Part shown: positions 43,541 to 59,453 of the stretch, one piece after another | Layout: each line of letters begins with the position of its first letter | Position numbering within the stretch: the stretch's first letter is position 1 | NCBI RefSeq assembly: GCF_003574315.2 | Contig: NZ_AP025739.1 | Location: 7,068,001 to 7,132,000 of the forward strand | Reading direction: 5' to 3' | DNA length: 64,000 bases | DNA from: Capsulimonas corticalis | GTDB taxonomy: Bacteria > Armatimonadota > Armatimonadia > Armatimonadales > Capsulimonadaceae | Position numbers and translations under genes: made by a program | The notes under the pieces: model-generated | What the model was told of the DNA's origin: nothing | Database searches by the model: none | Seen by the model: the letters and a program-made list of their open reading frames with translations, nothing else

Positions 43541-44776
43541 TTATTGACGACGGGCGAGCAACAGACAAACATCGTCGCGCAAGTGGCCACCGGCGAATTC
43601 CCGTGCGCCGTCATAAATGGATCGGATCAGGTCGAGTGATGAGGCGTGCGGTCCGCCCTTTTCCGCAAGCGCCGCCATCCCCGCGATACCTAAAAACGAA
43701 AGTCCACGCCGCGCCTCAGTAATTCCATCGGTCGCCATCAAAACTGTCTCCCTAGGCGCAAGCAGGCGACTGGCCAAAATATATGTCTCGTCCGACTTGA
43801 CGCCAAGAGGCATGCCTCGGCACTCAATCTGCTCCACCGCGCCGCTCGCCCGCAAGATCAGAGTAGCCTCAGCGCCGGCTGAGGAGAATCGGGCTTCACC
43901 GGTGGCGATATTCACGACGACCAGAGCCAGGATAATGAACGTTTCCTCGTTATTCTTATCGAGCCGGTGCGTTTCGCGAACGATTTCGTTGAGATGGGCC
44001 AGGGCAATCTCCGGAGAATGATATTCATGCAGGAAAGCGCGCAGTGCATATTTGACCTCAGCCGTGCGCCCAGCGGCGAACAACCCCTTGCCTGACACGT
44101 CACCGACAACCAGCGCGACCTCGCACTCACTCAAGGCGAAGGCGTCAAAAAAGTCGCCGCCAACCTCTGCTTCGTGAAGCGCCGCCTCATAGAGCGTCTC
44201 TACCAAGAGTCCGGGAAACTTACCTGATGGGGACGACTGCAGCATGGCGCGCTGCAGCGTCGCGGCGATGCGTTCGTTTTTGGTGGCGGTGGCGACGAGT
44301 TCAGCTTCCGCCTTCTTTCGGTGGGTAATGTCGCGGATATTGCACTGAATTACCGTTTCGCTGCCTTCCTGGTAGAGATTGCTAACGAACTCCACTTGAC
44401 GTGTCTCAGATCCTCGAAACACCAGAGGCAAATTCTCGTACCGGATAGAACCATGCTGTTTCAATTTTTGAAAAGCGTCTCGACTGGCTTTCTGGTCCTT
44501 GATCAGACCGATCTCCCAGAGTTCCTTGCCCAGCAGCTCATCATGAGAGTAGCCTAGCAGCTCGGTCATGAAGGGGTTAGCGTCGGTAATCCGCCCATGA
44601 TCGGCTTCTAGCAACAGGATGCCGTCGCGAGCCGCCTCAAAGAGACGCCGGTATCGCAGTTCCGAGACCTTCAAGGCATCCGTGCTGGTCTCCGCCGTAG
44701 CCAGCGTCGGGTGGGTGTCCAAGGCAAACGGCGCGCCGCAGGACAGATCATTCGATATTGTGGGCGGGTCGATCAT
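43541..44776 (-). CDS. PAS-domain SpoIIE-type protein phosphatase
   Basis: 411 residues. A PAS domain (residues ~40-155: RYRRLFEAARDGILLLEADHG, ITDANPFMTELLGYSHDELLG, ending VIQCNIRDITHRKKAEAEL) precedes a PP2C-like SpoIIE domain: AALHEAEVGGDFFDAFAL, VVGDVSGKGLFAA, FSSAGAEATLIL, VLMATDGITEARRG, and a final HLRDDVCLLLARR. The conserved Asp pairs bind Mn/Mg. Such proteins dephosphorylate anti-sigma antagonists or act through unknown partners. The PAS segment is close to those at 51 and 52.7 kb. ATG 44776 is chosen; a TTG two codons upstream is possible. Confidence 0.9.
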   Translation of the reverse strand: MIDPPTISNDLSCGAPFALDTHPTLATAETSTDALKVSELRYRRLFEAARDGILLLEADHGRITDANPFMTELLGYSHDELLGKELWEIGLIKDQKASRDAFQKLKQHGSIRYENLPLVFRGSETRQVEFVSNLYQEGSETVIQCNIRDITHRKKAEAELVATATKNERIAATLQRAMLQSSPSGKFPGLLVETLYEAALHEAEVGGDFFDAFALSECEVALVVGDVSGKGLFAAGRTAEVKYALRAFLHEYHSPEIALAHLNEIVRETHRLDKNNEETFIILALVVVNIATGEARFSSAGAEATLILRASGAVEQIECRGMPLGVKSDETYILASRLLAPRETVLMATDGITEARRGLSFLGIAGMAALAEKGGPHASSLDLIRSIYDGAREFAGGHLRDDVCLLLARRQ

Positions 44777-45489: not shown

Positions 45490-46332
45490 TCAACGGCTGC
45501 TTGTTTCGACTTCGACAGCGGATGTCATTCGGCCTGACAACATTTCCGAAGGCGCACGGCGCTGCCGGGTATAGTAAGCGAGCAATTCCTCCTCGAATTG
45601 AGGGCTGATCGGCTTACCGGAATCCCACTCGGGCGCATTTCGAACCTGATCGCACGTAATGTCCACCGTCACGGTGTGGTCTACCCAGATCGTCAGTCCG
45701 ATCCAGTCATGCGGAAGCAGAACCTTTTTCCCTGGCCACCAGTCGCGTGTATCTACCGCAAGGAAACGCAGTTTCCATACGGTATCATCGACGATGAAGT
45801 CCTCGACATGGCCGATATGGCCGTCCTGCGCAGCGATTTTATATCCACTGACTTCCTTGGTGCTGCGAAGATGCGGATCACCCCGGTCACGCGCCGACTC
45901 GTGGCCCCTTGCTCTCTCGTTCTCGGCCTGCGGCGACATGCCGGCTTCGTTCTCTTTGGCCACCATCACCGCCCCCGGAACGCCCGTTCCGCCGGTGAGG
46001 CCCATGCCGCCCCAATAGAATGGCCATGCGTAATAGTCGTAATACTCCGTCTCCCATTGGCGCGACACGGGCTCATTCGTTTCAATTCCCGGGCTCTTTT
46101 CAATCTGGTCGCGAGTTAAATTGACGTTGAGCACGCGGAGATCCCAATCCAATACACCCAGCGCGGCAGGCGCGATCAGTACCTTACGGCCATCAAGCCA
46201 CCCTCCCGTGTCCACGATCAGGTAACGGACCGTCCACTGCTCTTCATCGAACAGGATTTCATCGATTTTTCCGATTTCCCCATCAAGCGCCCGAAGGGCA
46301 TTTCCATGCAGATCTTTGACTTGGATTAACAT
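45490..46332 (-). CDS. Two-domain PRC-barrel protein
   Basis: 280 residues with two PRC-barrel repeats: GEIGKIDEILFDEEQWTVRYLIVDTG (residues ~18-43) and DGHIGHVEDFIVDDTVWKLRFLAVDT (~170-195). They are separated by a region containing EPVSRQWETEYYDYYAWPFYWGG. PRC-barrels are small beta domains that occur in photosynthetic reaction centres, RimM and many stress proteins; the task here is unknown. It follows slipin by 44 bp and is a clear paralogue of the protein at 48104, with the same architecture and linker. ATG 46332 has AAAGGAAACACGAT in front. Confidence 0.85.
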   Translation of the reverse strand: MLIQVKDLHGNALRALDGEIGKIDEILFDEEQWTVRYLIVDTGGWLDGRKVLIAPAALGVLDWDLRVLNVNLTRDQIEKSPGIETNEPVSRQWETEYYDYYAWPFYWGGMGLTGGTGVPGAVMVAKENEAGMSPQAENERARGHESARDRGDPHLRSTKEVSGYKIAAQDGHIGHVEDFIVDDTVWKLRFLAVDTRDWWPGKKVLLPHDWIGLTIWVDHTVTVDITCDQVRNAPEWDSGKPISPQFEEELLAYYTRQRRAPSEMLSGRMTSAVEVETSSR

Positions 46333-46376: not shown

Positions 46377-47348
46377 TTACATTGGCGACGTTCCTAAAAG
46401 CTCGGCGTCCGCTATGGGCGTCACTCCGTTCGCGTGCGCTAATCCGTTTGCGGCCACCGGAGCCGGTGTTTCCATCGGAGCGGCTTTTGCGCCCTCCTGC
46501 CCTATCCCCATCGTCAATGCCGTCAAACCCGCAAGACCGCCGAGCTGCATGGATTCGACCGCCGTGCTGGGAACGATGACGATGGTCGAGTTCTGTTTCA
46601 GACCTTCATACAGCATGTTCATCGCTCGCAAGTGGAACGCGACGGGATTATTGGCGTAGGTCTTGGACGCTTCACCGAACTTCTCGGGCACCTGCCGCTC
46701 CGAGTCGCCGAGGATAACGCGCGCCTGACGCTCCCGTTCTACTTGAGCTTGCATCGACATCGCGCTCTCCAGCGACGGCGGAATCAAGACATCCTTGACT
46801 TCCACGGAGATCACCGTAATGCCCCAGGGCTCCGTACGGTCGTCGATGATCATCTGTAACCGAGCGCTGATCGTGTCCCTACCCTCCAGCATATCGGCGA
46901 GCATCGTCTTGCCGATAACATCGCGCAGGGCCGTCTGGCACGCCCAGCCAACCGCCGCCTGATAGTCCGCCACATCCAGGGCCGCCTTCTGAGGATCCAG
47001 AACCTTCCAGAAGAGAACTGCGTCCACGTCCACCGTATCTTTCGTCAGCGTCTTTTCCGCCTTAAACGACATCGTGATCACCCGCGTATCGATCCAGTAC
47101 ACAATGAAATCCACAACGGGAACGATGAAGAACAGCCCCGGTCCCCGCAAGGCCTGGAAGCGCCCCAGGCGCAGGACCACCGCCTTGTCCCACTGATTGG
47201 CGACCTGGAGGGACGAGTACACAATACACGCTAAAACAAACGCCAGTACGCCAGCCGTGATATTTGGCAAGCCAGGCGACGGCCCGCCGATGGCGAAGGA
47301 AATACTCAGTCTCACGCCTAAGATAACGATGACCGCTAATGCTGACAA
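46377..47348 (-). CDS. Slipin (SPFH/band 7 membrane protein)
   Basis: 323 residues: an N-terminal hydrophobic hairpin (LPNITAGVLAFVLACIVYSSLQVA), then the SPFH core beginning QWDKAVVLRLGRFQALRGPGLFFIVP, through TKDTVDVDAVLFWKV, RARVILGDSERQVPEKFGEA-like region and NSTIVIVPSTAVESMQLGG. A proline/alanine-rich tail follows. It is a typical prokaryotic slipin, a membrane scaffold often with NfeD partners, though none is next to it. A TTG at 47348 is the only reasonable start; it has a weak ribosome site. A shared promoter element lies 155 bp upstream (47503-47555). Confidence 0.85.
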   Translation of the reverse strand: MSALAVIVILGVRLSISFAIGGPSPGLPNITAGVLAFVLACIVYSSLQVANQWDKAVVLRLGRFQALRGPGLFFIVPVVDFIVYWIDTRVITMSFKAEKTLTKDTVDVDAVLFWKVLDPQKAALDVADYQAAVGWACQTALRDVIGKTMLADMLEGRDTISARLQMIIDDRTEPWGITVISVEVKDVLIPPSLESAMSMQAQVERERQARVILGDSERQVPEKFGEASKTYANNPVAFHLRAMNMLYEGLKQNSTIVIVPSTAVESMQLGGLAGLTALTMGIGQEGAKAAPMETPAPVAANGLAHANGVTPIADAELLGTSPM

Positions 47349-47502
47349 CTAACTTGCTGATTTCGTACGACTAACTCCTGCGACGCACCCGGTTACGTGG
47401 ACTTTGAGAGGCGGTATTGCTCCGGGGGATAACACTGAGAAAGATGAGCGAGTACGGCCCGCTGCTGGAGCCTGCGCATATTTTACAGGCGCCTATTGGA
47501 AT

Positions 47503-47555
47503 CAGTATGGAGCATGGCGCCCCCCATGTCGCCCGTCCAGGGTAGGACTGTAAAC
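47503..47555 (-). promoter_or_regulatory. Shared promoter element upstream of slipin
   Basis: On the minus strand: GTTTACA, 14 bp, GGGCGACA, 13 bp, GCTCCATACTG. Within it GCGACA and CATACT are separated by 17 bp, a sigma-70-like -35/-10 pair. The same three blocks with the same spacing precede the PRC-barrel gene at 49017. The assignment as a promoter is inferred from repetition and spacing. The start of slipin is 155 bp downstream. Confidence 0.6.
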
Positions 47556-47576
47556 ACGACCTAATGATGGTCTGAT

Positions 47577-47626
47577 GCCTGTCCTTAAGGACAGGCTCTG
47601 GCCCCATCTCACGGTCAGGTGACCGT
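47577..47626. repeat. Two adjacent inverted repeats, upstream of the slipin promoter
   Basis: A 20-bp perfect palindrome GCCTGTCCTTAAGGACAGGC (47577-47596) and ACGGTCA-GG-TGACCGT (47611-47626). They lie downstream of the zinc-ribbon gene end (47781) and 22 bp upstream of the promoter block. A T-run is lacking, so an intrinsic terminator is not clear. The rest of 47349-47780 holds only the promoter above. Confidence 0.5.
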
Positions 47627-47780
47627 CAGTATCAGGTTTAGAGATTTGAGATTATGCGAACATCTTTTGTGACTGACTTTCGGAATGCGTCCTTCAGGCG
47701 TAACCGCACCGGTGCCATCAGCATGGCCCTTCATTGATCTGCCGCTGGCGACAAGTCGACGCCGGCTTGGGCCTCAAGTG

Positions 47781-48101
47781 TTATCGTCCCGGGCTGTACT
47801 CATTAGCAACGCCGCCGATAGGATAAAACCATCTCGTCACGGATTGACACCATTGCAGGACGCGACGGGTGCTTGACTTAGTCGGTTGCCCGATTCCTGG
47901 CGCATCGACTTTGTTCTCCGATAAGGCGCCGCGCCATCCGCAGTTGTAACATTCCAGGGTTAAAATGTGGTTGAGCGTACCGCACAATACACAGAAACCA
48001 GCGCCAGGCTCCGTCAAGGGCGATGGAATGACCGTAAGCCGCTGGCTGTTGGCGGTCAGCGCAACTTCCGGCGCCGTGATTTCTTTCAGAGTTTTATCCA
48101 T
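47781..48101 (-). CDS. Zinc-ribbon small protein
   Basis: 106 residues with a four-cysteine ribbon: CVLCGTLNHILTLECYNCGW, CxxC plus CxxC about 11 residues apart. The N-terminus is polar and the C-terminus basic. It starts 2 bp after the PRC-barrel stop (48104) and is clearly co-transcribed with it. Metal binding is likely; function unknown. The region after residue ~80 (RVLQWCQSVTRWFYPIGG) is less regular. Confidence 0.6.
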   Translation of the reverse strand: MDKTLKEITAPEVALTANSQRLTVIPSPLTEPGAGFCVLCGTLNHILTLECYNCGWRGALSENKVDAPGIGQPTKSSTRRVLQWCQSVTRWFYPIGGVANEYSPGR

Positions 48102-48103
48102 GG

Positions 48104-48976
48104 TTATTGTCTCTCCGAATACGACCGACCGGCGGACGCTTGCCGTTCGTTCCTGTGTGCGACGGGCCGTTCATCCACCTCAAGGCGCTGCTCGCCATAG
48201 TAGACGGCAAGTTCATACTCGAAGGCTGGGCTGATCGGCTCATGCGCATTCCAACTCGGTCCATTACGAACCTGGACGCGTGTTACTCCAACGTTAACGG
48301 ACCGGTCCGGCCATTGGGTGCTGATGATCCATTCGGGTGGCAGGAGAACTTTCTTACCTGGCCACCAATCTCGTGTGTCAACGGCGAGATAGCGGATCAA
48401 CCAACTGACCTCGTCGATAATCAAGTCTTCGACATGCCCAATGTGACCGTCCTCGGCAACGATGCCGTATCCGGTTACTTCGCGCGAGCTGCGCAGGTGA
48501 ATGTCATCGTTTTTGTCCGGATTATCGCCGCCTCGCGCCCGCGCCTCCAGAGCCTGCGGCGAGGCTGCGTTGATTGCGGTTGTGACCGAGTACACTGAGC
48601 CGGGATTCCCTGCTGCCCACGACAATCCCGCGCGGTTAGCAAGCCCCATCCCAGTCCAGTAATACGGCCAGCCGTAATGGTCGTAGTATTCCGTTTCCAT
48701 CTGGCGTGAAACGGGCGCGTCCATATCGATTCCTGGACTGTCCTCCACTTGGTGATGTGTCAAGTTGACATGCCATTCGCGTGTAGTCCAATTCATGTCG
48801 CCGAACGCCTTTGGCGCAATCAGCACTTTACGCTCATTGAGCCAGCCGCCGGTGTTCACCACCAGGTAACGGACTATCCACTGATTATCGTCGAACAGGA
48901 TCTCATCGACACTGCCGATCTCTCCGTCTCGTGCGCGAAGTTTCACCCCGTGCAGTTCTTTAACTCTCCTCAGCAT
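48104..48976 (-). CDS. Two-domain PRC-barrel protein (paralogue of 45490 protein)
   Basis: 290 residues with two PRC-barrels, DGEIGSVDEILFDDNQWIVR (from ~18) and DGHIGHVEDLIIDEVSWLIR (from ~170), and a linker with APVSRQMETEYYDHYGWPYYW matching that of the 45490 protein. Ribosome site AAGGAAGG precedes ATG 48976, 41 bp downstream of a shared promoter element. Its C-terminus differs from the paralogue and is enriched in Arg/Glu. Co-transcribed with the zinc-ribbon gene. Role unknown; stress or envelope inferred from neighbours. Confidence 0.85.
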   Translation of the reverse strand: MLRRVKELHGVKLRARDGEIGSVDEILFDDNQWIVRYLVVNTGGWLNERKVLIAPKAFGDMNWTTREWHVNLTHHQVEDSPGIDMDAPVSRQMETEYYDHYGWPYYWTGMGLANRAGLSWAAGNPGSVYSVTTAINAASPQALEARARGGDNPDKNDDIHLRSSREVTGYGIVAEDGHIGHVEDLIIDEVSWLIRYLAVDTRDWWPGKKVLLPPEWIISTQWPDRSVNVGVTRVQVRNGPSWNAHEPISPAFEYELAVYYGEQRLEVDERPVAHRNERQASAGRSYSERQ

Positions 48977-49016
48977 GTTGCGATATCCTTCCTTACTCTC
49001 ACGACGGACTTAAACA

Positions 49017-49069
49017 CAGTATGGAGCGCGGAAGATGCTCTGTCGCCCGCCCTTAGTTCTGGTGTAAAC
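49017..49069 (-). promoter_or_regulatory. Shared promoter element upstream of PRC-barrel/zinc-ribbon operon
   Basis: GTTTACA, 14 bp, GGGCGACA, 13 bp, GCTCCATACTG on the minus strand, identical in spacing to the slipin copy. The -35-like GCGACA and -10-like CATACT are 17 bp apart. It ends 41 bp from the start codon. Confidence 0.65.
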
Positions 49070-49077
49070 CAGACAAA

Positions 49078-49099
49078 AGGACAGCCCTTGGGCTGTCCT
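49078..49099 (-). terminator. Intrinsic terminator after the thioredoxin-fold gene
   Basis: A perfect 10-bp stem AGGACAGCCC/GGGCTGTCCT with a TT loop; on the minus strand it is followed by TTTTG. It lies downstream of the stop at 49212. Confidence 0.6.
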
Positions 49100-49106
49100 G
49101 AAGATT

Positions 49107-49142
49107 AGGCGATGACCTAACCTCGTGGTTAGGTCATCGCCT
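49107..49142. repeat. Long perfect 16-bp inverted repeat
   Basis: Arms AGGCGATGACCTAACC and its complement with a TCGT loop, next to the terminator at 49078. A very stable hairpin on either strand. It may add to termination or process the transcript. Confidence 0.6.
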
Positions 49143-49211
49143 GAGGTAGGTTTAAAATTTGGTGGTCTGATGAACGAATACCGCGAAAACATGCGAGATG
49201 CGCGGTGACGT

Positions 49212-49709
49212 TCAGTTGTCGTCCTGCGGGATCTCTTCCCAGTCATCCAGTCGGCGGGCGCCGTTTATGAAGAACGCGGGGGCGCCGGTAACGCCGCTGT
49301 GTACGCCGCTCTCCCGATCCTGGCGGACGTGCTCGCCGGAAACATGCCCTGTCATGTCACGAAGAAACTGGTCCATATCTAGCCCCAGATCACGCGCGTA
49401 CTCGACAATGTGTCCGCTGCCGAGCGCGGATTGATGCTCAAAGAGCGTGTCGTGCATCTCCCAAAACCTGCCCTGCCGACCGGCCGCCTCCGCCGCTTCG
49501 GCGGCATGCGCGCGAAGGCCAGGTGTTGGAAAGTGACGGAATACGAACCGCAATCGGCAGCCCATCCGGGCCTGATAGGATCTGATCCTTGGCTGGGCGT
49601 CGGCACACTTTGGGTCCGCGTAATCACCGTATTCCAGAAGAGTGACGACCGCCTCTGTTGGTCCTTGAGAGTGGTCTCGGTCGCTGATAGGCAATGACAA
49701 CTTGTCCAT
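49212..49709 (-). CDS. Thioredoxin-fold DsbA-like protein without the CxxC motif
   Basis: 165 residues. The DsbA/FrnE-like start VVTLLEYGDYADPKCADAQP has DPKC where the catalytic CPxC should be; only one cysteine remains. The cis-proline region GVTGAPAFFINGARRLDDW and helical insert (GRQGRFWEMHDTLFEHQSALG) fit the DsbA-like family. Redox activity with a dithiol is unlikely; a chaperone-like or single-cysteine role is possible. No signal peptide, so probably cytoplasmic. The C-terminus is short. A shared promoter element ends 5 bp before ATG 49709, which would make the transcript nearly leaderless unless translation starts later. Confidence 0.75.
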   Translation of the reverse strand: MDKLSLPISDRDHSQGPTEAVVTLLEYGDYADPKCADAQPRIRSYQARMGCRLRFVFRHFPTPGLRAHAAEAAEAAGRQGRFWEMHDTLFEHQSALGSGHIVEYARDLGLDMDQFLRDMTGHVSGEHVRQDRESGVHSGVTGAPAFFINGARRLDDWEEIPQDDN

Positions 49710-49713
49710 AATT

Positions 49714-49745
49714 CAGTATGGAGCATTCTAGGCTTTCAGTCGCCT
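49714..49745 (-). promoter_or_regulatory. Shared promoter element upstream of thioredoxin-fold gene
   Basis: AGGCGACT, 13 bp, GCTCCATACTG; the last two blocks of the element at 47503 and 49017 at the same spacing (GCGACT, 17 bp, CATACT). The upstream GTTTACA block is absent. It nearly touches the start codon at 49709. Confidence 0.6.
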
Positions 49746-49770
49746 ATCCCCAGGTCTGATATCAGCAATA

Positions 49771-49800
49771 CAAAAGGACAGTCTCAAGACAGTCCTTTTG
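49771..49800 (-). terminator. Intrinsic terminator after the response regulator gene
   Basis: Arms CAAAAGGACAGTCT and AGACAGTCCTTTTG with one mismatch; on the minus strand the stem ends in a T-run. It lies just after the stop at 49824. Confidence 0.6.
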
Positions 49801-49823: not shown

Positions 49824-50504
49824 TCAATCCAAGCTCGCCAGGCCGCGTTTGAGCGCTGTAATCACCGCTTGGGTGCGATCCCCCGCGTTGAGCTTACTCA
49901 GAACGTGACCGACATGGAACTTGACCGTACTTTCTGCGATGAAGAGCGCCCGGGCGATCTCCTGATTACTCATGCCCCGGACCATAAACCGCAGCACTTC
50001 CAGCTCCCTGTCGCTCAGCTGCTCGTAGATAATCCGGCTGGCGAGCTTCGCTCCCACTTCAGAGGAGACAGGGGTTTGGCCAGCGTGGACAGCGCGGATC
50101 GTATCCACGAGAACATGCCGGCCGACATCCTTGAGAAGATAGGCTTTGGCCCCCGCCTGCAGCCCGCGATAAATGTCTTCATCCGCGTCGTAGGTGCTCA
50201 GGATAATCGCGCGGGCCGCCGGAGACTGCGTTCGGATGGCGCTGATAGTTTCCACACCGTTCATCCCCGGCATACGCAAATCCATCAGCGTCACATCTGG
50301 GCGATGCTCTCGGTAGAGACAAAGCGCTTCCGTGCCTGAGCTAGCCTGACCGACTACGATCATATCGTCCTGCTCTTCGATGACTCCCGCCAGGCCGTCA
50401 CGGACGACAGGGTGATCGTCCGCGATTAGGATGCGGATCTTACACACATCGTCGTGCATGCCGCTGCTGCGAGCGTAATCGACGCGTGCTGTATTAATAT
50501 CCAT
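49824..50504 (-). CDS. NarL/FixJ-family response regulator
   Basis: 226 residues: receiver domain (IRILIADDHPVVRDGL, phospho-acceptor Asp in VTLMDLRMPGMNG, DEDIYRGLQAGAKAYLLKD) followed by a LuxR-type HTH (LSDRELEVLRFMVRGMSNQEIARALFIAESTVKFHVGHVLSKLNAGDRTQAV). It is overlapped by 11 bp with the histidine kinase at 50494, its obvious partner. It probably controls genes of the nearby stress module; a DNA target is not visible. Confidence 0.93.
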   Translation of the reverse strand: MDINTARVDYARSSGMHDDVCKIRILIADDHPVVRDGLAGVIEEQDDMIVVGQASSGTEALCLYREHRPDVTLMDLRMPGMNGVETISAIRTQSPAARAIILSTYDADEDIYRGLQAGAKAYLLKDVGRHVLVDTIRAVHAGQTPVSSEVGAKLASRIIYEQLSDRELEVLRFMVRGMSNQEIARALFIAESTVKFHVGHVLSKLNAGDRTQAVITALKRGLASLD

Positions 50505-51621
50505 TTGGGTTTGTTTGTGGGGAAATCGGCACGATCAGGTCAATCGCCGTTCCCTGTTTCGAATGACTGACGATGGACAGTGTCCCCTGGGCTTTTTCTG
50601 CGCGCTCTCGCATACCGATCAGGCCAAATCGCCCGGCTTCGGACAGACTGGGATCGAATCCGCGCCCGTCATCGTGTACGCAAAGCCGGACGGCGCCCGC
50701 TTCAAAGGACAGCTTTACGAATATCTCCCGCGCCTGCGCGTGTATGACGGCGTTCCCAATGGCCTCCTGGCCGATCCGAAGCAGAAAATGTTCGATTGAC
50801 GGCGGTAACGGGTAAGGGATGCCTTCCAGCAGATAACGGCCCGCAGTCGCCGTTCCCAGGACCCGCTGTGCCAGGAAATCAGCCAGCGCCTCGCTCAAGG
50901 GGGCCGCCTCCAGCGTCGGCGACCGCAACGCCTCGACGGAACGCCTCGCCTCATTCAAGCTCTCATGGGCCAGGTCGCGCGCTTTTCCGATGCGCACTTG
51001 GACCTTTCCTAATTGGGTCTGACACACAGCAAGGCGGGCCTGACTGGCGGCAAGAGTGTCGGACAAGATCGGCTCAGGCTCCCTGGAGAGAACCGCATCC
51101 GCCGCTTCCAGCTGCGCGGCGATTCCGGTAAAGCCCTGTGCAAGCATGTCATGGATCTCCCGCGCCAGCCGACTGCGCTCCTCCAATACGGCCAACTCGG
51201 CGGCTTGACGCCCATGCTTGTCGGCGGCAGCAACAAGTTCCACTTCCCCGCGCTTTCGTTCGGTAATGTCACGAACGTTACACTGAATGACCGTGTGATC
51301 ACCCTCGGGATAGAGGTTGCTGACAAACTCCACCTGGCGGCTTTCCCCACGTCGGTTCTCAAGCGGCAGGTCCTCGTACCGGATGTAGCCCTCCCGCTTT
51401 AGTCTAAGGAACGCCTCCTGGCTGGCCCCCTTATCGCGCAGAAGCCCAATCTCCCATAGTTCCTTGCCCAAAAGCTCCTCATGCGAATAACCCAGAAGTT
51501 CCGTCATGAACGGGTTAGCATCGGTGATTCGGCCGTGATCGCTGTCCAGGAGGAGGATGCCATCGCGAGCCGTCTCGAACAGTCGGCGGTACCGCAGTTC
51601 CGAAATTCTCAGGGAGTCCAT
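50494..51621 (-). CDS. PAS-domain HisKA_3-type sensor histidine kinase
   Basis: 375 residues: PAS (LRISELRYRRLFETARDGIL, ITDANPFMTELLGYSHEELLG, TVIQCNVRDITERKRGE), then the HisKA_3 dimerisation/phosphorylation segment EERSRLAREIHDMLAQGFTGIAAQLEAA with the histidine in EIHD, and an HATPase domain (GQEAIGNAVIHAQA; VHDDGRGFDPSLSEAGRFGLIGMRERAEKAQG). Cytoplasmic, no transmembrane helix. It shares its PAS module with the SpoIIE phosphatases at 43541 and 51670 and overlaps the response regulator gene. Confidence 0.93.
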   Translation of the reverse strand: MDSLRISELRYRRLFETARDGILLLDSDHGRITDANPFMTELLGYSHEELLGKELWEIGLLRDKGASQEAFLRLKREGYIRYEDLPLENRRGESRQVEFVSNLYPEGDHTVIQCNVRDITERKRGEVELVAAADKHGRQAAELAVLEERSRLAREIHDMLAQGFTGIAAQLEAADAVLSREPEPILSDTLAASQARLAVCQTQLGKVQVRIGKARDLAHESLNEARRSVEALRSPTLEAAPLSEALADFLAQRVLGTATAGRYLLEGIPYPLPPSIEHFLLRIGQEAIGNAVIHAQAREIFVKLSFEAGAVRLCVHDDGRGFDPSLSEAGRFGLIGMRERAEKAQGTLSIVSHSKQGTAIDLIVPISPQTNPNGY

Positions 51622-51669: not shown

Positions 51670-53235
51670 TCAGTCTTTGCGCACCAATACCAACCAGGTA
51701 TCATCACGAAGTTCTCCATGAGCAAAATCGAGAGCGCCCTGGAGTATTGCCTCACCCATGCTTTGCAGCGTCTCGCCGCAATGCTTCACCGCCAATTCCC
51801 TCACACCATCATCCCCCAGGAAATCTTTGCCATACCGAGCTTCAGTAATCCCATCCGTCATCATCACGAGCGTATCTCCCGCCCCAAGTTGGAACTCCAC
51901 ATGATTGTAAGTAGGCTTTGGCTGCATATTCATTCCCAGCGGCTGCCCCGAAGCCTTCAAAACGTCGATAGCGCCACTGGCGCGGACCAACAACGGGCAC
52001 TCCATTGCTGCAACAGCGAGAAACCCTGCTCCCGTTTGTCTATTAATTACTGCGAGTGACAGGCACACAGGCGTATCGTCGCCTTCCGTGTTGACGCCTT
52101 CCAAAAACAGTCGATTGCTCTGTGAGATATACTCGTTCATCTGATGCAGAATACGTGATGGATGCTCATGCTCGCGGACATAAGCCCGCAGAGTGTGCTT
52201 GAGTTCCGTGGTAAAGACGGCGGAATGCAGGCCATGCCCCATCACGTCGCCACAGACCAGAGCGACGTGTCCTCGGTCAAACGCAAATGTGTCCCAGAAG
52301 TCACCTCCGACAAGGGCCTCATCGGAGGCGGTAGAATAGATCGTATGGACCAAGAGGCCAGAAAAGGCATCTTCGTTTGGCCGAAACAACATCGTACGCT
52401 GTAAGTCAGCAGCAATCTTTTTGTCTTGCTCCTGATCGGCGGCGGTTTTGGCTTCCAACAATTTACGCTCAGTGATATCGCGAATATTGCATTGAATGAC
52501 CGAGCCATTACCTTCTTGGTAAATATTGCTGACGAACTCTACCTCGCGCTGATTAGCTCCTTCGCTTTCGAGCGGTAGATCCTCGTATCGGATATAGCCG
52601 TTTTCTTTCAACTGCTGGAAAGCGTCCCGGCTGGCCGTTTCGTCTTTTAGGAGACCAATCTCCCACAGTTCCTTGCCCAGGAGTTCCTTATGAGAATAAC
52701 CAAGAAGCTCTGTCATAAACGGATTGGCGTCGGTGATCTTTCCATGTTCACTGTCCAAAATCAAAATGCCATCGCGAGCCGCTTCAAAAAGTCGTCTGTA
52801 CCGCGTTTCTGAGATTATCAGTGCCTCGCGCGCTCGCACCCGCTCGGTAATGTCTTCGATAGCGACTACGAGAAGCGCCGCACGGCCATCTGCTTCAAAC
52901 GACTCGCGAGCATTGATGAGCATCACACGAGGACCGATTTGCGGAAAATTGATGGCAACTTCAAAATCGTCGAATGAGTTGTGTTCCAGAAGGATGTTAT
53001 TGAGAAGATCGATCAGTTCAGGGATATTCCAATGACCATTGCCGAGTTCAACGAGGAGTTTCATTTCCGTTTCTTCTGCTGTTACTTGAAAGGTCTTATA
53101 GAAGGCGCGATTCGCGGATATGACTCGGAGGTTAGTATCGAGGATTAGCAAGGGGTCACGGACGCTATCGCCGATATTTATGATGTGTGTGAAACTTTGT
53201 ACTGGCAATTCATCGTGTCCCATCGGCGGCCTCAA
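51670..53235 (-). CDS. PAS-PAS SpoIIE-type protein phosphatase
   Basis: 521 residues. The first PAS (SFTHIINIGDSVRDPLLILD, VISANRAFYKTFQVTAEETE, VVAIEDITERVRAREAL) is of the CheB/R-type. A second PAS (TRYRRLFEAARDGILILDSEHG, VIQCNIRDITERKLLE) is the shared module. A SpoIIE phosphatase domain follows: SDEALVGGDFWDTFAF, VCGDVMGHGLHSAV, LVMMTDGITEARYG and GELRDDTWLVLVRKD at the end. Conserved metal aspartates are present. It is 48 bp upstream of the kinase gene on the same strand, but no operon overlap. A partner switch with the STAS-like protein at 31958 is speculative. Confidence 0.92.
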   Translation of the reverse strand: MRPPMGHDELPVQSFTHIINIGDSVRDPLLILDTNLRVISANRAFYKTFQVTAEETEMKLLVELGNGHWNIPELIDLLNNILLEHNSFDDFEVAINFPQIGPRVMLINARESFEADGRAALLVVAIEDITERVRAREALIISETRYRRLFEAARDGILILDSEHGKITDANPFMTELLGYSHKELLGKELWEIGLLKDETASRDAFQQLKENGYIRYEDLPLESEGANQREVEFVSNIYQEGNGSVIQCNIRDITERKLLEAKTAADQEQDKKIAADLQRTMLFRPNEDAFSGLLVHTIYSTASDEALVGGDFWDTFAFDRGHVALVCGDVMGHGLHSAVFTTELKHTLRAYVREHEHPSRILHQMNEYISQSNRLFLEGVNTEGDDTPVCLSLAVINRQTGAGFLAVAAMECPLLVRASGAIDVLKASGQPLGMNMQPKPTYNHVEFQLGAGDTLVMMTDGITEARYGKDFLGDDGVRELAVKHCGETLQSMGEAILQGALDFAHGELRDDTWLVLVRKD

Positions 53236-57587: not shown

Positions 57588-59453
57588 CTAATGCATCCCG
57601 GCTATCTGCCACTGGAGGGGCTCCCCGGCGAGGATCGTCCCGTCGCCGGTAATAGTGGTGCCGGTGAGCAGCCAGTAGGCGATGTCCCCGCTCTGGGTGT
57701 TGCGGACCAGGATGTCTGGCCTGCCGTCGCCGTCGATGTCGGGCGCGCCCACCACCTGCCACTGGAGCGGCTCGGTGGCGATGGTCCCGTCGCCGGTGAT
57801 CGTGGTGCCGGTAAGGATCCAGTAGGCGATCTCGCCGGTGCCCACGTTCTGGACGAGGATGTCCGAATGCCCGTCCCCGTTCAGGTCGGGAGTTCCGACG
57901 ATGTGCCAGCTGGTAGGCTCGAAGGCGATAGTTCCGTTGGCGACGATCTGGCAGTTCTGGAGGATCCAGTACGCCACCTCGCCGGTCGTCTTGCTCTGCA
58001 CCAGAATGTCGGGCTTTCCATCACCATTCAGGTCGGGGGTCCCGACGACCTGCCAGTCCGTGGACTCCATCGCGATCGTGCCGTCTGCGACGATCTGGTA
58101 GTTCTGCACGATCCAGTAGGCGATCTCCCCTGTCGCGGCGTTCTGGACGAGGATGTCGGGGTGGCAGTCGCCGTTCAGGTCCGGACTGCCGACCACCTTC
58201 CAGTCGGTGGACTGGGTGGCGATCGTGCCTGCGGTCACTATCTGGTACCCGTTGGTGAGCCAGTAGGCGATCTCGCCGGTCGCCGAGTTCTGGGCCAGCA
58301 TGTCGTAGGTCCCTCCCCCGTCCAGGTCGCAGACGATATGTCGTATGGCGATGGTCTGGGCCGCCTGGAACGTTGTGCCGGCTGCGTCGGTAACCGCAAG
58401 TGTGATTACATGGGAACCCGGCAGGCAGTACGTGGGGTTGAACGGGACGCTCCAGGCAGGGCCCGGCGAATTGATCGTGGCAAAGGCACTGCTAGCGCCG
58501 TCGAGGAACAGCTTGACGCTCGCGACCGCGGACCTCGAGTCGCCGTCGGTCCCGGAGATCGTAGTCAGCCCGCTGACCACCGCTCCGTCCGAGGACGGGG
58601 AGGCGATGCTTCCGGCAGGGTTCCCGGTTATCATGATCGCGCGGCTGCAGCTGAAGGTCGCGCCAGCCTGGTCGGTGACCGTAAGGGTGACCGTGTGCGT
58701 CCCGGCGGCATAGCCCGCAGGATTGAACGACGCGCTCCAGGTGGGTCCCGGATTGCTTACGGTCGCAAAGGGGGTACCTGCGCCGTCAAGGAACAGCTTG
58801 ACGCCCGCGACCGTAGATCCTGGGTCTCCGTCGGTTCCGCTGACCGTTATCGGACTGGTAACCTGTACGCCGTCTTGCGCAGGGTTAGTGAAGGCGCAAG
58901 TTGGGTTGGGAGGCGCACCTTGGCTCGAATGTCTAAACCATCCAAGGACGTTGTTGAGGCCTGACAAGGCGTGGAGCAGGCCTTTCTCATCACTTTTCCA
59001 GTTCGAGTCAACCACCTGAACGGTTGTGGCGCTTGTAGGATCATTACATACAATCGCTATATGGCCATAGCCCAACCCAACGGAGGAGGACCATACTACA
59101 ATATCCTGGCTTTGGGGATAGCTAGTGCCGTCATTCGCAATCCTTTGCGTATGCGCTGGCTGGAGCCTTAGGTCATCCCAGATCCAGTGGGCGCCGTCCG
59201 AATCAGAAGCCTGGGAGTCGCCGGAATGGCCGTTGTAGGGATGGAATTGGCCAATACTGGGAATTGGCTCCCCAAGAACTTGGGCAGCGTAGTTCCCAGC
59301 AAAGACGACGCATTGACCTTGAACTGCCACGCCATTGTAATAAGAAGGGTTGCCTGGAACCCATCCTTGAGCCCCTGCTGACATCGGCATGCCAGTGAGC
59401 ATGGCGGCCAATAGCGCCACCATGATTGCTACTTGAGTTATAGCCTGTCTCAT
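57588..59453 (-). CDS. Secreted CHAP-domain protein with Ig-like and FG-GAP/VCBS repeats
   Basis: About 621 residues. A signal peptide (VAIMVALLAAMLTGMPMSAGAQ) is followed by a CHAP cysteine peptidase/amidase domain (catalytic Cys-48 in GQCVVFAGNYA, His-131 in GYGHIAIV, Asn-151 in DSNW). Two bacterial Ig-like repeats (GTDGDPGSTVAGVKLFLDGA, GTDGDSRSAVASVKLFLDGA) come next, then about five FG-GAP/VCBS repeats of ~52 residues (DLNGDGKPDILVQSKTTGEV type) to the end. It probably cuts peptidoglycan or peptides at the surface, with the propeller for binding. The start is placed at ATG 59453, 9 nt after an AGGA; ATG 59459 is possible. Confidence 0.85.
   Translation of the reverse strand: MRQAITQVAIMVALLAAMLTGMPMSAGAQGWVPGNPSYYNGVAVQGQCVVFAGNYAAQVLGEPIPSIGQFHPYNGHSGDSQASDSDGAHWIWDDLRLQPAHTQRIANDGTSYPQSQDIVVWSSSVGLGYGHIAIVCNDPTSATTVQVVDSNWKSDEKGLLHALSGLNNVLGWFRHSSQGAPPNPTCAFTNPAQDGVQVTSPITVSGTDGDPGSTVAGVKLFLDGAGTPFATVSNPGPTWSASFNPAGYAAGTHTVTLTVTDQAGATFSCSRAIMITGNPAGSIASPSSDGAVVSGLTTISGTDGDSRSAVASVKLFLDGASSAFATINSPGPAWSVPFNPTYCLPGSHVITLAVTDAAGTTFQAAQTIAIRHIVCDLDGGGTYDMLAQNSATGEIAYWLTNGYQIVTAGTIATQSTDWKVVGSPDLNGDCHPDILVQNAATGEIAYWIVQNYQIVADGTIAMESTDWQVVGTPDLNGDGKPDILVQSKTTGEVAYWILQNCQIVANGTIAFEPTSWHIVGTPDLNGDGHSDILVQNVGTGEIAYWILTGTTITGDGTIATEPLQWQVVGAPDIDGDGRPDILVRNTQSGDIAYWLLTGTTITGDGTILAGEPLQWQIAGMH
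57600..58330 (-). repeat. FG-GAP/VCBS tandem repeats (~156-bp period)
   Basis: Five successive repeats encode DxNGDxxPDILVQNxxTGEIAYWI plus a link of about 28 residues. The repeats are degenerate at DNA level but regular in length, so expansion by slippage or recombination is likely. Confidence 0.75.

Follow-up and report, generated by a model that had tools for sequence, protein, structure and literature searches.

A three-block motif upstream of three stress-type genes in Capsulimonas corticalis: putative terminator-promoter cassettes of common descent

The slipin gene, a PRC-barrel gene (PRC1) and a DsbA-like gene of the soil bacterium Capsulimonas corticalis are each preceded by the same short sequence blocks at the same spacing. 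The locus raises the question of whether these blocks belong to a stress promoter used throughout the genome, to a small local regulon, or to DNA that was copied together with its spacing. In the window (the whole stretch of 64,000 nucleotides that was analysed), the minus strand carries, in this order, a PAS-SpoIIE phosphatase gene, a histidine kinase gene, a response regulator gene, cassette C, the DsbA-like gene, cassette B, PRC1, a small ORF, cassette A, the slipin gene, PRC2, a 139-aa ORF and a second PAS-SpoIIE phosphatase gene (Table 1). The nearest solved structure to the response regulator is VraR (E = 3e-43), and the slipin is 77-78% identical to its orthologues in the relatives G005 and G003. 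Segments coding for the PAS domains of the two phosphatases and the histidine kinase (44424-44680, 51362-51618, 52571-52827) share ~72% DNA identity, a domain duplication. Elsewhere in the window, a tandem 147-bp repeat (57669-58329) comprises about four copies of 66-73% identity inside an ORF.

Table 1. Positions of the genes, cassettes and sequence blocks within the window.
Feature	Position	Strand	Remarks
PAS-SpoIIE phosphatase	51670-53235	-	
PAS histidine kinase (HisKA_3, HATPase_c)	50494..51621	-	Overlaps response-regulator gene
NarL/LuxR-type response regulator	49824..50504	-	Response_reg and GerE; directly upstream of cassette C
Cassette C, upstream of DsbA-like gene	49714..49796	-	Homologous from terminator hairpin (49800-49771) through GCTCCATACTG
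Cassette C blocks	AGGCGACT 49745-49738, GCTCCATACTG 49724-49714	-	GTTTACA absent
CATACT, candidate -10 element	49715..49720	-	5 nt 5' of DsbA-like ATG (49709)
DsbA-like/thioredoxin-fold gene, 165 aa	49212..49709	-	Pfam DSBA 3.7e-15, Thioredoxin_4 1.3e-12
Cassette B, upstream of PRC1	49017..49161	-	16-bp perfect hairpin; terminator hairpin 49099-49078 with T tail
Cassette B blocks	GTTTACA 49069-49063, GGGCGACA 49048-49041, GCTCCATACTG 49027-49017	-	
PRC1, double PRC-barrel protein, 290 aa	48104..48976	-	Pfam PRC
Small ORF, 106 aa, CxxC pairs, zinc-ribbon-like	47781..48101	-	Pfam: no match
Cassette A, upstream of slipin	47503..47648	-	Two hairpins
Cassette A blocks	GTTTACA 47555-47549, GGGCGACA 47534-47527, GCTCCATACTG 47513-47503	-	
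Conserved leader, ~50 nt	47384..47437	-	Between cassette A and slipin; outside three-copy motif
Slipin/SPFH gene, TTG start	46377..47348	-	Band_7 5.2e-31
PRC2, paralogue of PRC1	45490..46332	-	58% aa, 65.6% nt identity

An earlier note on this DNA had placed GGGCGAC(A/T), 13 bp and the block GCTCCATACTG before all three genes. A base-by-base check finds exact copies of GGGCGACA-N13-GCTCCATACTG at 47534-47503(-) and 49048-49017(-), the 13 bases being counted from the base that follows the A/T of the first block. The third copy, at 49745-49714(-), reads AGGCGACT-N13-GCTCCATACTG and has one mismatch to GGGCGACW-N13-GCTCCATACTG; the first block common to all three copies is GGCGAC, not GGGCGAC. 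No match to GGGCGACW-N13-GCTCCATACTG occurred in 100 shuffles of the window. GTTTACA does lie exactly 14 bp upstream of GGGCGAC in two copies, those of slipin and PRC1, as had been noted, and the equivalent position before the DsbA-like gene reads GCTGATA. The distance of 17 bp given for GCGACA and CATACT likewise holds in all three copies, but the third reads GCGACT. The GCTCCATACTG block is located ~40 nt 5' of the PRC1 ATG and ~155 nt 5' of the slipin TTG start (47348).

The similarity reaches well beyond these blocks, which form the 3' end of longer homologous segments clustered within 2.2 kb. Cassettes A and B align over ~146 bp, gapless except for one single-base gap near the 5' end (Smith-Waterman score 69; the best of 1000 shuffles reached 34), and with the motif removed they still score 53, against a maximum of 30 in 1000 dinucleotide shuffles. 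Cassettes B and C align without gaps over ~83 bp, beginning at the terminator hairpin. Without the motif this pair scores 34, a value reached in none of 1000 dinucleotide shuffles, and its identity in register is 52% versus at most 41% at other offsets. For A and C without the motif, homology was not significant when this pair was taken alone (41 of 1000 shuffles scored as high). Similarity ends at the last G of CATACTG, and identity directly downstream is 24-26%. Judged by these alignments, the three upstream regions are paralogous DNA segments and not three independently evolved sites. Since the copies are homologous, the fixed spacing is largely inherited, and a tandemly duplicated putative terminator-promoter cassette explains it.

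Hairpins are part of the duplicated DNA. Inverted repeats lie upstream of slipin (47596-47577), PRC1 (49099-49078) and the DsbA-like gene (49800-49771), as the earlier note had it; those of PRC1 and the DsbA-like gene resemble intrinsic terminators with T tails, but the slipin repeat has no T tract. A further, perfect 16-bp hairpin (49105-49145, -) is found 3' of the DsbA-like gene and 5' of the second terminator hairpin, and these two hairpins of cassette B together give a fold z-score of -9.1. No Rfam match was found with E up to 1. The AGGACAG stem is not used by other terminators in 318 kb, which speaks against a general terminator repeat of the genome, and a DNA search for a dispersed or mobile repeat yielded no further copy.

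The neighbouring genes bear on how the cassettes multiplied. As PRC1 and PRC2 are paralogues, cassette and PRC gene were probably duplicated together (cassettes A and B). Both PRC genes have AGTAAG(G/A)AAGGA at nearly equal distance from the ATG and thus matching ribosome-binding regions; in PRC1 the Shine-Dalgarno-like site AAGGAAGGA lies ~9 nt 5' of the ATG. In the relative G005, the slipin gene is directly followed by the 139-aa gene and later by the phosphatase gene; a PRC gene is missing from the interval, which makes PRC2 look like an insertion in this genome. The simplest history would be a duplication of cassette plus PRC gene around slipin and the copying of a shorter segment to a place in front of the DsbA-like gene. 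Slipin and its own leader are today situated between cassette A and PRC2.

Within the duplicated segments the core is more conserved than its flanks. Across 102 aligned columns of the three cassettes, 43 are invariant: 17/17 inside the blocks and 26/85 (31%) outside. The 11-bp block is identical three ways, and a run of at least 11 invariant columns has P ~0.004 at the overall rate, which counts as moderate support, the blocks having been chosen after the data were seen. Because the three copies are related and come from a single genome, the effects of descent and of function on this conservation are not fully separable. The DsbA-like gene begins with an ATG 5 nt downstream of CATACT; this start codon lacks a Shine-Dalgarno site and has an in-frame stop codon just upstream. 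We compared this arrangement with a background sample of 864 kb from the same genome (the window and 40 stretches totalling 800 kb; genes called with a simple home-made caller). There, -10-like hexamers are most frequent 6 nt upstream of ATGs, with nine cases at that distance and typically two or three elsewhere, and no Shine-Dalgarno match is present in the cases listed. On this geometry, a -10 element is the most likely role of CATACT, and the DsbA-like mRNA is a candidate leaderless transcript. Before the slipin gene, CCAATAG occurs after the -10 position both here and in two orthologues. In the same sample TATAAT and TTGAC...TANNNT are strongly enriched upstream of genes, whereas the sense strand there has no more CATACT than the antisense strand; the site is therefore off-consensus for the housekeeping sigma factor. 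Its -35/-10 pair agrees with TTGACA/TATAAT at 7-8 of 12 positions, below the standard scan threshold of 9/12, and was therefore missed.

From this evidence we infer promoter function, start sites, a regulator and co-expression as follows. The motifs are probably the conserved cores of paralogous terminator-promoter cassettes that were tandemly duplicated within the locus and drive a private regulon from an activator-dependent promoter with CATACT as -10. Cassettes B and C would terminate the transcript of the preceding gene, and all three would initiate the following one, the GGCGAC region serving as -35. GGCGAC would be a poor -35 and CATACT is an unusual -10 for this genome, hence the presumed need for an activator. 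The regulon would comprise the DsbA-like gene, PRC1 with the small ORF, and slipin with PRC2, and the three stress-type genes are probably co-regulated locally. The modular units under common control proposed in the earlier note thus find backing in the terminator hairpins, the common strand, the conserved core and the leaderless geometry at the DsbA-like gene.

Other explanations were weighed against this reading. The stress-type gene products and the ~50 matches to sigma-70 region 2 in the genome would suit a genome-wide class of stress promoters served by one alternative sigma factor. The genome-wide pattern search proposed in the earlier note speaks strongly against it. In the 7.65-Mb genome (a single contig), the only sites with up to two mismatches are these three (zero or one mismatch; none with two), and sites with three mismatches are near background (13 versus 5 for a reversed-pattern control). 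The shortened core GGCGACW-N17-CATACTG returned the same three sites and six one-mismatch matches (control 2), all six inside or overlapping open reading frames. A profile of 102 positions, derived from the three copies, matched only these same three at full length; its other, weak matches were hairpins on the opposite strand, and N16 spacing as a control gave background only. With no enrichment upstream of other genes, the suggestion of a general stress promoter does not hold. At this stringency a genome-wide class is refuted and we hold it to be highly improbable; a much more degenerate motif is possible. Nor did 150 relatives contain a convincing, clustered or repeated copy, matches with one or two mismatches being scattered singles; the upstream regions of PRC relatives (18 loci) lack the motif and those of slipin orthologues lack the cassette. 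Such isolation, with just three homologous copies, no orthologues found and hexamers far from the promoter consensus of the genome, would also fit a duplicated terminator-bearing spacer, in which the motif was kept by chance or recent descent and the blocks have no promoter function. We consider this improbable, since the blocks are invariant next to sequence that has fallen to 31% three-way identity, homology ends at the -10-like block, CATACT is in leaderless position, and the DsbA-like gene comes after a terminator and so requires a promoter in the 110-bp gap.

A further reading assigns the cassettes to a general-stress sigma factor, with GTTTAC as -35, GGGCGA as -10 and a 15-bp spacer; GCTCCATACTG would be downstream sequence. 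The spacing of GTTTAC-N15-GGGCGA agrees with the Bacillus SigB consensus, GTTTAA-N15(+/-2)-GGGTAT (PMC9847131). The genome encodes two SigB/SigF/SigG-family sigma factors (L018 and L020), each scoring above the NCBIfam cut-off, and the locus encodes two PAS-SpoIIE phosphatases. GTTT...GGGTAW promoters are found at the slipin gene of G005 and at other genes with its leader in G005 and G003. In addition, GTTTGC-N13-GGGTAT (53287-53263, -) precedes by 27-28 nt the phosphatase gene adjoining the locus and is a good candidate for a SigB-type promoter. The cassettes themselves fit poorly, however. GGGTA occurs in none of the three copies (GGGCGA in two, AGGCGA in one), neither GTTT nor the first G is present in the third, and the blocks conserved three ways are GGCGAC and GCTCCATACTG, not GTTT and GGG. 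Moreover, GTTT...GGGCGA is found upstream of genes only twice in the 864-kb sample, the number expected from two related copies alone. This reading is somewhat less improbable than a functionless spacer but still unlikely, and the activator-dependent promoter is preferred because the TA of the -10 is absent from every copy.

SigB-type control may operate on slipin elsewhere in the family. The slipin leader has the pattern CYCCCGG-N~18-TCAAnnTCCACGTARCCGGGTGCG, is common to the slipin orthologues of two relatives, where it ends ~18 nt before the start codon, and was not found in Rfam. Three Capsulimonadaceae genomes hold six strong copies (one here, three in G003, two in G005); they precede slipin, relatives of the 139-aa gene and one further gene. 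The 24-nt leader core begins 41-47 nt upstream of the start codons, and 60 nt here, the start having apparently moved. Where the orthologues start with ATGAAATC, this genome has ACGAAATC (47366-47346, -) followed by an in-frame TAG, and the slipin start therefore appears to have been relocated to the TTG at 47348. In four of the six copies (L174, L177, L178, L179), including that of slipin in G005, GTTT-N14-17-GGGTAW lies 97-104 nt upstream of the leader core; the chance rate, measured on 180-bp pieces of the own genome, is 0.12%. These findings suggest that Capsulimonadaceae have a SigB-type regulon whose genes share one leader. The slipin gene studied here has retained the leader, and cassette A replaces the SigB-type promoter seen in G005.

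The leading candidates for an activator of the cassettes would be, by adjacency, the neighbouring histidine kinase and NarL-type response regulator, and control by this regulator is our leading guess. It is a tentative proposal, of which we are rather doubtful, that a dedicated factor, either this regulator or an unusual sigma factor, has the cassettes as its private target, with putative recognition of GGCGAC-N14-GCTCCATACTG. In that case promoter and terminator would have spread together and built a small stress regulon in one locus. The locus would illustrate how a small regulon can arise when a terminator-promoter segment is copied before unrelated genes. It also calls for caution, as the same element with the same spacing at three genes can reflect common ancestry instead of a motif used across a regulon. 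The locus also offers testable predictions on promoters, leaderless mRNAs and a SigB regulon in the Armatimonadota, a poorly studied phylum.

Among known systems, the cassettes are comparable to duplicated paralogous bacterial promoter regions, in which homologous non-coding segments precede different, co-regulated neighbouring genes and the core is kept as the spacer diverges. They differ in including the terminator hairpin of the preceding gene (B and C) and in lying as three copies within 2.2 kb with no orthologue found. With SigB-type promoters, two cassettes share GTTTAC and GGG 15 bp apart, but the third has neither element and none has the -10 TA. Leaderless promoters of Deinococcus have a -10 (TANNNT) adjoining the ORF (PMC12340547). 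The DsbA-like gene resembles them, with a -10-like hexamer 5-6 nt upstream of an ATG that lacks a Shine-Dalgarno site; the hexamer, however, is CATACT and not TANNNT, and PRC1 and slipin would have leaders of ~40 and ~155 nt. Like local regulons of NarL/LuxR-family two-component systems (VraR/LiaR-like), the locus has a kinase-regulator pair adjoining possible co-directional targets; unlike them, the cassette blocks form no evident inverted repeat and are candidate targets by adjacency.
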